64,000 bases of DNA from Endomicrobiaceae bacterium (GTDB lineage: Bacteria > Elusimicrobiota > Endomicrobiia > Endomicrobiales > Endomicrobiaceae). Below are positions 9,055 through 61,552 of this stretch, piece after piece. The notes beneath the pieces were generated by a model. That model had not been told where the DNA came from. It saw only the letters and a list, made by a program, of their open reading frames with translations, and ran no database searches. The number at the start of each line of letters is the position of its first letter. Position 1 is the first letter of the stretch. The translations under genes and the position numbers were made by a program. The DNA lies in the NCBI GenBank assembly GCA_028711215.1, contig JAQTSO010000005.1:1-64000 (forward strand). Direction: 5' to 3'.

Positions 9055-9843
9055 ATGTTATTGCATAGAATTTTAGTTGCACTTGTCGGAATTCCATTAG
9101 TCTTATGGTGTATATATTTGGGGGGAATCCCGTTTTTTTTAATGTTTTTTGCAATAGTATTTTTTTCGGTTATTGAATTTTATTGCATATGTAAAAAATA
9201 TAATCCTATGAATTTTATCGGGACGATAATTGGTTCTATTTTTTTTATATCACTATATCTTAATTATAATGTACAAATATTTTTAATATTGTCACTATTT
9301 ATAATTTTTTTATTCCAAATGTTCAGAGGCAAAACAAACAGTGCCAGTTCTGAAATAGCGGTTACGATTTTCGGAGCACTCTTTATACCGTGGACATTGT
9401 ATCATATGATTTTGATAAGGGATATTTCTGTTTTTGGCACACAGTATATAATATTTTTATTTGCAAATATTTGGTTATTAGATACAGGGGCTATGTTTGC
9501 GGGTAAAAAATTCGGCAAGCATAAATTAGCTGCGAATATAAGTCCTAAAAAAACTGTTGAAGGGGCTATTGCCGGTATAATAACGGCTTTAATTGTTTCT
9601 GTTTTATGCAGAGAAATTTTTATGAAAAATATAATTAGCATTAATGAAACAATAATTTTTGCTGTTATTATAGCAGTAGTTGCACAATTTTCGGATTTAG
9701 CAGAATCAATATTCAAAAGAGATTGCAATATGAAAGATTCCGGTAATATATTACCGGGACACGGCGGTATGCTTGACAGATTTGATTCTTATTTATTCTG
9801 TGCACCTATATTTTACTATTCAATAATATTCATAAAAGGTTAG
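9055..9843 (+). CDS. cdsA: Phosphatidate cytidylyltransferase
   Basis: Multi-TM; DTGAMFAGKKFGKHKLAANISPKKTVEGAIAG and KDSGNILPGHGGMLDRFDS signature. Confidence 0.95.
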   Translation: MLLHRILVALVGIPLVLWCIYLGGIPFFLMFFAIVFFSVIEFYCICKKYNPMNFIGTIIGSIFFISLYLNYNVQIFLILSLFIIFLFQMFRGKTNSASSEIAVTIFGALFIPWTLYHMILIRDISVFGTQYIIFLFANIWLLDTGAMFAGKKFGKHKLAANISPKKTVEGAIAGIITALIVSVLCREIFMKNIISINETIIFAVIIAVVAQFSDLAESIFKRDCNMKDSGNILPGHGGMLDRFDSYLFCAPIFYYSIIFIKG

Positions 9844-9848
9844 ATATA

Positions 9849-9985
9849 ACATTATAGCGACTTTAACTATTTTGGTTACAGCTTTGAAATTTTAAAGTTC
9901 ATTTACCAATCGCTTTGCTTTCTTTTATGTAAACTTCACTTTAAAATTTCTTCACTTCACCTAAAATATTTAAGTCCTTAAAAAC
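9849..9985 (+). repeat. Dispersed structured intergenic element, copy A
   Basis: Aligns end to end with 61244-61383; perfect 13-bp inverted arms 9886-9898/9938-9950 plus outer paired segments. Confidence 0.85.
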
Positions 9986-10043
9986 ATAAATATAACGTTT
10001 TTATAATGCTTTTATTAATATAATCGCACTAGAGGTTATTTCA

Positions 10044-10829
10044 ATGTTTAATATAGATACTTATGCTAAATCAAAACAAGATGTCATTGACATTATTAAG
10101 TCAACTCATGATTGGGAACATACTGAAGGATTTATTGCAGATGGACTTATTGATCCAATAGAATATGATAAAACTCAGAATAAAATTATTGTTTTTCTGT
10201 CAGAATCTTATGGATACGATGAATGTAGAATGAAAGATATAACTGAGCAATCTGAATATGAACCTAAATCTAACCCTAAAGATGAAAAATATAATCTTTT
10301 AGGCATTGGTCATAGAAATAAACAAACATCAAACAAAATTCCAATTTTGTTATGGTATATTCATAATCATTTTAATGATGATATTGTTAAAGAAAGTGAT
10401 GGATATTTAAAAAAAAATGATAGTATGTTAAAAAAAACTATTGAAAATAAAAAACAACTTCAGAATGCATTAAAAAAATCAGGATGGATTAATGTAAAAA
10501 AAGCATCTAAACATATAGAAGAAAATGCTAAAAATAAAACTAGACAAAATTACAATGAAATATATAATGCAGTAGAGAAAAATAGGGAAATATTAACTGA
10601 ACAACTTAATTCAACAAGTCCAAATTTAATAATAGCTTGTGGTAATCCGGTAATAGATGGTTTAATTGATAATGGAATAATACCTCTTAAGCAAAAAAAA
10701 ATAAAAAATAAATTAATGATTATTGAAAATGGACAAAAAATATTTTTTGTCAGTCATCCTAGTTATTTTAAAGATTGGAATTATAATAATATTTATAATA
10801 TGTATAAAGAAATAGTCAATAATATTTAA
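10044..10829 (+). CDS. Uracil-DNA glycosylase superfamily-like protein of unknown role
   Basis: KIIVFLSESYGYDE, SPNLIIACGNPVIDGL and C-terminal FFVSHPSYFKDWNYNNIYNMYKEI resemble UDG-fold motifs; no strong specific family recognised. Confidence 0.5.
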   Translation: MFNIDTYAKSKQDVIDIIKSTHDWEHTEGFIADGLIDPIEYDKTQNKIIVFLSESYGYDECRMKDITEQSEYEPKSNPKDEKYNLLGIGHRNKQTSNKIPILLWYIHNHFNDDIVKESDGYLKKNDSMLKKTIENKKQLQNALKKSGWINVKKASKHIEENAKNKTRQNYNEIYNAVEKNREILTEQLNSTSPNLIIACGNPVIDGLIDNGIIPLKQKKIKNKLMIIENGQKIFFVSHPSYFKDWNYNNIYNMYKEIVNNI

Positions 10830-59078: not shown

Positions 59079-60449
59079 TCAGTCATTAGTATCAATTTTA
59101 TAATATCCGGGTATTTCCATTATTTTGTAAATGTCTATACCGAATTTTTTAAATCGGTTTTGCTCAATATACATCTTACTATATTTTTTACCAAAAAATT
59201 CTTCTGAAGATAGTAATATTTTACAGTTATTGTTTGAATTTAAAAATATTTTTTTGAACAAAATAGCTGCTTGGATATCATATTTATTCGTCAATCCATC
59301 TCTGGCAAATCGTTGGATAGATATTTTTTCATTATTTTCCATATATTCAAGAATCTCATAATTAAAACGATTATTTTTGTTCGCGTAGATTAGAGTACTT
59401 ATTAAAAATGATGCCATTAATACAATATTAGCAATTTTTATATATGTATATTTTAGTTTTATTTTGAATACTGATATAAAAATTAAAAATAACATACATA
59501 AAAATACAAGATATAAATTCAACATTCTATAAAAAACACCTTGTATAGGGGTTATTTGCAACACCGTATAAAAAACTATAGTAAAAAAAATAATTGAAAT
59601 AATTTTTAAGTATTTATCATATTTAGTTTTTAAGATTGATATAATAATAATTGAGAATATTGCTGATATAAAATATATAAAATTTAAATCTCTTAGCATG
59701 CTAAATTTCCAATAATCATTAAATAGGGAAAATGGAAACAATATACAATATATATTAAAAATTAATGCGATGATTAATATAATAAAACTAGAAATAAGCA
59801 CTATTTTATTTGGGGGGCTTATATTTTTTGTTTTGAAATACTTATTTATCCCAAAAAACAACAGCATCGGTATAAAAACAACTACATTTGGATGAGAACT
59901 AATTAAAAATATTGAAAAAATCATCAAAGTAATTAAATTAAATAATTTCAATTTATCGTAATTGATATAAAAATATATAATAAAAATTATCCATAGAAAT
60001 AATGAACTAAATAGACTCTCTGCTAACATAACATATTTCATATAAACCGTACAAACCAAAAATGACAAAAGAATAATTTCAAAAGTTTCTTTTTTATCTT
60101 TTGGGATATTAATATAAATGATACTTAAAAAAATAATCGGAGAAAAGTATACCCAAAATGTAAAAATACTTAAAAGGTATTTAATATCTACAATGCCAAT
60201 AAAAATACTAAAAATAACTGAAAATTGTGGCAACATTGTAGAAAAATAGCGAACAATATATTGATAATTGCCAATATTTTCACTGCCATACAAAATATCA
60301 TTGAACACCAATGATGCAAAAAATTGACGAGAATTATCAAGTATTAACCCTATATGAGAATGGGTATTTATAACAGCAATAATGAAAAAACAACTGCTGA
60401 CTAATATTATTGAAAAATGTTTTTTTAATATTTTAAAAATTTGTTTCAT
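59079..60449 (-). CDS. Polytopic membrane protein of unknown function, related to 24260-25672
   Basis: Many TM segments; SSHPNVVVFIPML; IIYINIPKDKKETFEIILLSFL segment matches the lon-linked gene. Confidence 0.55.
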   Translation of the reverse strand: MKQIFKILKKHFSIILVSSCFFIIAVINTHSHIGLILDNSRQFFASLVFNDILYGSENIGNYQYIVRYFSTMLPQFSVIFSIFIGIVDIKYLLSIFTFWVYFSPIIFLSIIYINIPKDKKETFEIILLSFLVCTVYMKYVMLAESLFSSLFLWIIFIIYFYINYDKLKLFNLITLMIFSIFLISSHPNVVVFIPMLLFFGINKYFKTKNISPPNKIVLISSFIILIIALIFNIYCILFPFSLFNDYWKFSMLRDLNFIYFISAIFSIIIISILKTKYDKYLKIISIIFFTIVFYTVLQITPIQGVFYRMLNLYLVFLCMLFLIFISVFKIKLKYTYIKIANIVLMASFLISTLIYANKNNRFNYEILEYMENNEKISIQRFARDGLTNKYDIQAAILFKKIFLNSNNNCKILLSSEEFFGKKYSKMYIEQNRFKKFGIDIYKIMEIPGYYKIDTND

Positions 60450-60570
60450 AAATTTAATAATTTGGCTTTTTTATATTAACACTTTGAAAACAAAAAAACA
60501 ATAAAACCTTGTATTTATTTTATTTTTTCAATAGAATAAAACAAAATCAAATATTATGAAAGAGGGTATA

Positions 60571-61242
60571 ATGTTAGTAAAACTTTTGAAATGGACAAAA
60601 GAACCGGAAAAAACATGTGCAATAGCAGGAAGATTGTGTTATTCATCAGTCGGTGTTGAAGAACTTGATAAAAAACTTGATGAACATAAAATAAAAGATA
60701 TTTTAATTAAAATAGTCAAATCCGGACATTTATCTGTTCTGGAACATGCATCTTTTACTTTCGCAATAGAAGGGGTTTCAAGAGCTTTGCTTGCACAACT
60801 TACAAGGCACAGAATAGCCTCGTTTTCGGTACAAAGCCAAAGATATGTTAAATTTAAAAACGGCATAGACTGCGTTGTTCCTCCGATAATTAAAAAAAAC
60901 AAAGAACTATTAAAAGAATATCAGGAATTTTTAAAAACTTCCGAAAAATATTATGAGAAACTCTTAAATGCGGAAATCCCTGCAGAAGATGCCCGTTATG
61001 TGCTGCCTAATGCCGCATCAACAAAAATAGTTTTAACGATGAATGTAAGAGAATTGAGACATTTCTTTGCATTAAGATGTTGCAATAGAGCACAATGGGA
61101 AATACGAGATATGTCTTGCAGAATGTTAAAGCTTGCAAAAGAAATTGCCCCGATTTTATTTGAAACAGCCGGTCCTGACTGTGTTTCTGTGGGATGTACT
61201 GAGACTATGCCATGCAACAATCCTTGGAAAAAATTCAAATAA
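60571..61242 (+). CDS. thyX: Flavin-dependent thymidylate synthase
   Basis: LEHASFTFAIEGVSRALLAQLTRHRIASFSVQSQRYV (ThyX RHR...S motif); ATG 60571 has AGAGGG just upstream. Confidence 0.95.
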   Translation: MLVKLLKWTKEPEKTCAIAGRLCYSSVGVEELDKKLDEHKIKDILIKIVKSGHLSVLEHASFTFAIEGVSRALLAQLTRHRIASFSVQSQRYVKFKNGIDCVVPPIIKKNKELLKEYQEFLKTSEKYYEKLLNAEIPAEDARYVLPNAASTKIVLTMNVRELRHFFALRCCNRAQWEIRDMSCRMLKLAKEIAPILFETAGPDCVSVGCTETMPCNNPWKKFK

Positions 61243-61243
61243 T

Positions 61244-61383
61244 ACATTATATCGGCTTCACTATTTTGGCTACAGTTTTGTAATTTTAAAACTCATTTAC
61301 CGGTCCGTTTCTCTTCCCTTATGTAAACTTCATTTTAAAATTACTTCACTTCGCCTAAAATATTGAAGTCTTTAACAACAAAA
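61244..61383 (+). repeat. Dispersed structured intergenic element, copy B
   Basis: Homologous to 9849-9985, same orientation, arms 61280-61291/61333-61344. Confidence 0.85.
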
Positions 61384-61552
61384 ATTCAAAGTTTGAAGTC
61401 TTTAAAAGACTTAACAACTCAAATCTTTACAATGAAATCAAGAGTTTTTATTGAATTAAAAGAAAAAATTTAGTTTAATTGCTTTGAAGTATTTACACTA
61501 AATAATCTTTTTGATATTATATCCGTGTAGTTATCTAAAACAGAGGGGAAAC

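Follow-up and report, generated by a model that had tools for sequence, protein, structure and literature searches.

Do two look-alike spacers more than 51 kb apart in an Endomicrobiaceae genome encode a functional RNA, or are they copies of a DNA repeat that has spread through the chromosome? The question arises from a 64,000-nt stretch (positions 1 to 64,000 of contig JAQTSO010000005.1, GCA_028711215.1; hereafter the window), for which an original prediction made from the sequence alone proposed a two-copy intergenic element that folds into a hairpin, retains its structure while its sequence changes, and belongs to no known family. The genome is a 2.2 Mb MAG (G000) with 168 contigs, 99.6% completeness, and 8.8% contamination.

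Two copies of a hairpin element in the window

The two spacers lie 51,394 nt apart in the same orientation and form a gap-free direct repeat of 138 nt with 82% identity. As had been proposed, both begin close to a CDS stop codon, copy A 6 nt past that of cdsA (9841-9843) and copy B 2 nt past that of thyX (61240-61242). Their predicted folding into hairpins was confirmed in comparison with dinucleotide shuffles, of which 200 out of 200 were beaten by both copies (z = -4.3 and -6.4). When checked by eye, the compensatory changes read between the copies were also correct: A9887-T9949 in copy A becomes T61281-A61343 in copy B, G9897-C9939 becomes A61291-T61333, and GGT/ACC becomes GGC/GCC. The features of both loci are listed below, with scores from a covariance model (R1) built from an alignment of 51 copies (A1).

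9055..9843, + strand: cdsA (CTP_transf_1), upstream of copy A; Pfam PF01148, E 9.4e-59
9849..9986, + strand: element copy A; R1 match of 117.7 bits, E 1.2e-24 in the window; member of A1
9886..9898, + strand: main stem of copy A, left arm GAAATTTTAAAGT; partner 9938-9950, aligned columns covary
9902..9906, + strand: apical 5-bp stem of copy A, left side TTTAC; right side GTAAA at 9929-9933
9938..9950, + strand: main stem of copy A, right arm ACTTTAAAATTTC; from folding and covariation
10044..10829, + strand: UDG-superfamily-like gene between cdsA and dxr, beside copy A; weak PF03167 match
60556..61242, + strand: thyX (Thy1), upstream of copy B; Pfam PF02511, E 2e-72
61244..61380, + strand: element copy B; R1 match of 131.1 bits, E 8.5e-28 in the window; member of A1
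61280..61291, + strand: main stem of copy B, left arm GTAATTTTAAAA; partner 61333-61344
61333..61344, + strand: main stem of copy B, right arm TTTTAAAATTAC; from folding and covariation
61390..61420, + strand: possible 5'-truncated remnant TTTGAAGTCTTTAAAAGACTTAACAAC downstream of copy B; by eye, weak

The R1 search finds no third full copy in the window, and a further one is located elsewhere on the same contig (78640-78776). The possible remnant behind copy B resembles the right foot of the family, and a similar arrangement occurs at other loci, a weak likeness that was judged by eye. The UDG-like gene beside copy A scores below the cut-off of TIGR03914 and has no match among the eight relatives searched. 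Upstream of thyX, the opposite strand contains an ORF of 456 aa (59079-60449, - strand) without a Pfam match.

Copy number and distribution in the Elusimicrobiota

The genome-wide searches reveal dozens of copies per genome, far from an element restricted to the two sites of the window. A nucleotide search (E<=0.001) yielded 18 matches in the own genome and 16 in the genus neighbour G001. With R1, the numbers rise to 46 in the own genome (E<=0.01), a few of which may be strain duplicates given the contamination of 8.8%, 39 in G001, 74 in G018, and 58 in G009. The genus of Candidatus Proruminimicrobium quisquiliarum (Endomicrobiaceae, Elusimicrobiota) has been described previously (PMC11257099). 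In G000, many copies are found no more than a few hundred bases away from the end of a contig (C49, C85, C35, C137, C110, C65, C48, C19, C69, and C144). As this looks as if the repeat breaks the assembly, the copy number may be underestimated.

Outside the Endomicrobiaceae, R1 detected 3-10 matches per genome in five genomes that represent four other families of the order; the other nine genomes of this search had none. Almost none of the genomes of the most heavily sampled genus (g7, with many small genomes) carry the element. A second covariance model (R2), built from an alignment of the copies of the other families (A4), extended the distribution to another five families of the phylum, where its matches reach E-values of 2e-32 in f12, 4e-25 in f19, and 5e-20 in f16. 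No element was found in exact-pattern scans of viral contigs or in the plasmid and phage collections searched, and five pattern matches in other organisms look like chance, as R1 gives none below E 0.85 there. The view that no known family is involved also holds, with no Rfam match above the gathering score for the element and, for copy A, no match at all up to E<=10, and a limited search of the open-access literature found no earlier description. Judged by these sequence searches, this is a new repeat family present across much of the Elusimicrobiota, which some IS may mobilise.

Structure of the repeat unit

The unit has a length of ~125-140 nt in the Endomicrobiaceae and ~167 nt elsewhere. 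It consists of one long hairpin comprising an outer stem, a box, a 3-bp stem, a box, a 12-bp stem, a box, a 5-bp stem, and a variable apical loop. The boxes are asymmetric and occupy fixed positions, with GGCTRCAACTTYG opposite TACTTCRTTTCGC and CTYAYGTA opposite GTACRCYGC; the left and right boxes are conserved, but neither side is the complement of the other. The stems between them vary freely in sequence and retain their complementarity. In other families, the hairpin is longer on its outer side, where an additional box (TTTCTACTGCG opposite CGCTACGAAA) is joined by outer arms that vary from copy to copy and still pair. The arms of family f16 end in long perfect inverted repeats, and several f16 copies have TA on both sides (by eye), while no target-site duplication is evident in the Endomicrobiaceae. 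An example of such an end is GGAGCCTGTCCGACATAA. Genomes of the G152 and G188 lineages carry many near-identical copies. The element is short, non-coding, present in multiple copies (46 in the own genome), and equipped with inverted arms, as is typical of MITEs.

Position at gene edges

The left end of the element is closely tied to gene edges. Among 112 Endomicrobiaceae copies, for which stop-codon offsets were searched in an interval around the left end, 66 have a CDS stop codon on the same strand near this end, located within 20 nt in 65 cases and at a median distance of 0 nt. In 13 copies, the gene is terminated by a TAR that belongs to the element itself, and six others of the 112 are preceded by a tRNA on the same strand. 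The remaining left ends include some that adjoin an opposite gene on the side of its ribosome-binding site, and some that adjoin the U-run of a repeated small-RNA-like unit. In the unrestricted comparison, which comprises 95 copies, a gene edge is found within 30 nt of the left end in 69 copies and of the right end in 18, and the left neighbour is the start of an opposite-strand gene in 26 copies, within 30 nt in 14 of these. Elsewhere in the order, copies are often in contact with a tRNA gene at one end or the other, or follow terminator-like hairpins. The upstream genes, which we take from their predicted proteins to be rlmB, cysS, ilvB, valS, secY, dnaK, idh, deaD, xer, and others, are a mixed set of housekeeping genes and therefore do not imply a single regulon.

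Two further arrangements were observed. G018 contains facing element pairs with 140-260 nt between them, mostly with one element behind each of two converging genes (L206 1213-1624, L205 1274-1798, L208 3670-4078, and L209 1243-1656). The repeated small-RNA-like unit of ~103 nt has a promoter-like TTGACA/TATACT upstream, GCTTCC...GGAAGC ends, and a U-run, directly behind which an element copy is located at several loci (unit positions L059 13755-13857, - strand; L174 599-701 and 1339-1440; L179 1409-1450 and 1656-1727). It has no credible Rfam match.

Covariation of the paired arms

The covariation read from two copies is significant in the larger alignment. Standard pairs fill 94.8% of the pair cells in the 51 copies of A1, compared to 76.0% after shuffling, and two-sided changes number 283 vs. 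80, a value reached by none of 500 shuffles. Such changes are seen in 25 of the 30 pairs, far more than in any shuffle or slid register. When a tree-based null was applied, six pairs lay beyond every simulated value, each of them part of the proposed structure.

Whether this covariation reflects RNA can be judged from its mismatches. RNA tolerates G·U pairs and does not tolerate A·C pairs. The stems of the element contain G·U and A·C at a ratio of 26:27, in contrast to 34:0 in 25 tRNAs at the same loci (Fisher p 4.6e-8). Pair 26/115, which has a high share of G·U, was left out of this count because an adjacent bulge makes its partner ambiguous; its inclusion gives 44:28, still far from the tRNA pattern. 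The ratios in the order and phylum sets are 40:46 and 30:28, respectively. Since G·U is not commoner than A·C, unlike in the tRNAs, the complementarity of the arms appears to be maintained, and the pairing to be shaped, at the DNA level and not as RNA. Among orthologous pairs, we counted 22 two-sided changes, compared to 10 single changes that produce G·U and 4 that produce A·C, and given this small ratio an additional role as RNA may exist beside the DNA-level constraint. At one orthologous site, the apical segment with both arms differs as if swapped for that of another subfamily, and two further sites show a difference in the apical loop only. Modular exchange of this kind between copies would give two-sided changes without wobble intermediates.

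Mobility and conservation in place

Judged from a comparison of loci, the element appears to be mobile in origin, as indicated by four observations. Where nearly identical copies occupy unrelated loci, their boundaries are sharp, so that discrete units can be delimited; subfamilies exist; a full copy beside a gene often has behind it the right half of another copy, truncated on the 5' side; and orthologous sites can be empty. Such empty sites were identified in relatives for both copies of the window. The thyX site is occupied in G011, and G001 has a spacer of ~60 nt without the element. At the cdsA site, G001, G013, and G019 lack the element and dxr starts directly after cdsA, two genes that in the window are separated by copy A and the UDG-like gene.

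Many copies are nevertheless conserved in place in two species. The own genome and G001 have 13 of 20 CDS-linked sites in common, and at idh five genomes from three genera carry the element. At nine of 13 orthologous sites compared, the elements are 88-96% identical, while the median identity of the downstream spacers is ~0.49. Seven of the nine sites are CDS-linked; here the adjacent 300 nt of coding DNA have an identity of 75-88% in six cases and of 92% in the remaining one. As the identity of the elements usually exceeds that of coding DNA and is well above that of spacers, the copies appear to be kept by selection. Copying between loci does not explain this conservation, because for most of the nine elements the nearest paralogues are less similar than the ortholog.

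Our search for a mobilising enzyme in this genus, directed at Y1 transposases and integron integrases, did not find one. No Y1 transposase (PF01797) is encoded in G000 or G001, leading us to reject a RAYT-REP system for this genus. The integron integrase (TIGR02249) is found above its curated cut-off in G026 and G027 only, with no match at this level in the other 23 of the 25 genomes searched, the own genus included. No element lies beside the Y1 and IntI loci inspected in relatives.

Origin and possible role of the element

We consider it probable (roughly 75%) that the element is a miniature non-coding hairpin DNA repeat of the REP, ERIC, or MITE kind that has been partly domesticated at gene 3' ends. 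Its placement in the class of REP/ERIC/MITE-like interspersed hairpin DNA repeats is, taken by itself, well founded. The original prediction had offered either a functional RNA or a structured mobile, REP-like DNA. The DNA alternative is favoured by the G·U to A·C ratio, the discrete copies, and the empty sites; RNA function as the sole explanation is weakened by the contrast to the tRNAs, with the ratio of 10:4 within orthologs as a caveat. The element would have spread as DNA through a recombinase or transposase that reads its folded or inverted-repeat form, and recognition by this enzyme, together with exchange between copies, would keep the arms complementary. Copies next to gene ends would then have been retained where a hairpin is useful. 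Among their possible uses, we would put first that of a REP-like 3' boundary of the upstream gene, which might shield the 3' ends of mRNA or affect what happens at the stop codon. This tentative role is suggested by analogy with REPs, some of which in E. coli are positioned no more than 15 nt from a stop codon and reportedly cause ribosome stalling (PMC12306157), and with ERIC sequences, which are reported to occur in transcripts and to affect upstream mRNA in a manner that depends on their orientation (PMC2229807). A pure 3'-boundary role does not account for the left ends at opposite-strand ribosome-binding sites. Alternatively, the retained copies may be binding sites for a putative DNA-hairpin protein. 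A broader version of this idea seems rather doubtful: a phylum-wide folded-DNA element of its own kind, with copies selected in place, would be read by a putative dedicated host protein through the asymmetric boxes at fixed spacing, the arms being free to vary as long as they are complementary, and would serve both spread and the marking of gene ends.

The preferred reading of a partly domesticated DNA repeat has to be weighed against other explanations. A functional 3'-UTR RNA in sense transcripts, acting as an mRNA stabiliser or as a processing or protein-binding site with spread as a secondary feature, would account for the sense position directly after stop codons and tRNAs, the conserved internal-loop sequences with covarying helices, the in-place conservation of orthologous copies, and the excess of G·U over A·C within orthologous pairs. 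We regard it as unlikely, given that, in contrast to the tRNAs, three data sets contain G·U and A·C about equally often overall, the opposite-strand gene starts on the left of 26 of 95 copies, and the lack of an Rfam match. Intrinsic transcription terminators that have grown long and been copied around would fit the sites at gene and tRNA 3' ends and those copies between convergent genes that occur one per gene. However, the foot has no U-run, with five or more T in only 8 of 112 copies, some copies already lie behind an apparent terminator, and with only tens of copies per genome most genes are without one, making this explanation, which we reject on the missing U-run, highly improbable.

Integron attC-like recombination sites scattered over the chromosome would share with the element the folded-DNA constraint, asymmetric boxes, similar length, structure conserved over sequence, and a position just after the stop codon. 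Against this, no integrase above the cut-off was found in most genomes searched and in the own genus, inspection of A1 by eye did not show the paired RYYYAAC/GTTRRRY core sites at its ends, no element lies beside the two integrase loci found in relatives, the neighbours are housekeeping genes and not a cassette array, and, unlike in attC sites, the internal sequences are strongly conserved. The integron reading was rejected on integrase and core motifs and is very unlikely. Finally, similarity by chance between two AT-rich intergenic regions, a thought encouraged by base composition and by a window with two copies only, is refuted by the dozens of copies per genome, the phylum-wide matches, and covariation beyond both the shuffles and the tree-based null, and its probability is close to nil.

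Relation to known repeats

ERIC sequences, also known as IRU or RU-1, are enterobacterial repeats of 127 bp. The element resembles them in its similar length, long imperfect hairpin, intergenic location, tens of copies, and MITE-like character, but no sequence relation to ERIC was noticed. Unlike ERIC, the element is distributed phylum-wide, has its left end fixed at gene edges, carries conserved asymmetric boxes at fixed spacing, and has a measured conservation in place. REP palindromes are tagged with GTAG/CGTC at one end, and by eye neither end of A1 carries such a tag. Like REPs and REPINs, the element is an extragenic palindrome, but its unit of 125-167 nt differs from the 20-40 nt of REPs (PMC3733652), and the RAYT-type Y1 transposase is lacking in this genus. 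In the Bacillus cereus group, the MITE-like repeats bcr1-3 occur in UTRs and operon spacers, and other families among bcr1-bcr18, whose secondary structure is conserved, may function as RNA (PMC3446304). In contrast to these repeats of one species group, the element occurs in a whole phylum, and its G·U to A·C ratio speaks against a constraint on RNA only.

ERIC and bcr1 were described from one family or species group, whereas the element has a recognisable structure across a phylum. Together with its conservation in place and its locking to gene edges, this makes the question of whether such a repeat is a parasite or a part of its host directly testable with clean ortholog sets. Moreover, the contrast between G·U and A·C separates covariation at the DNA level from that at the RNA level, which matters for calls of novel RNAs that are based on covariation only.
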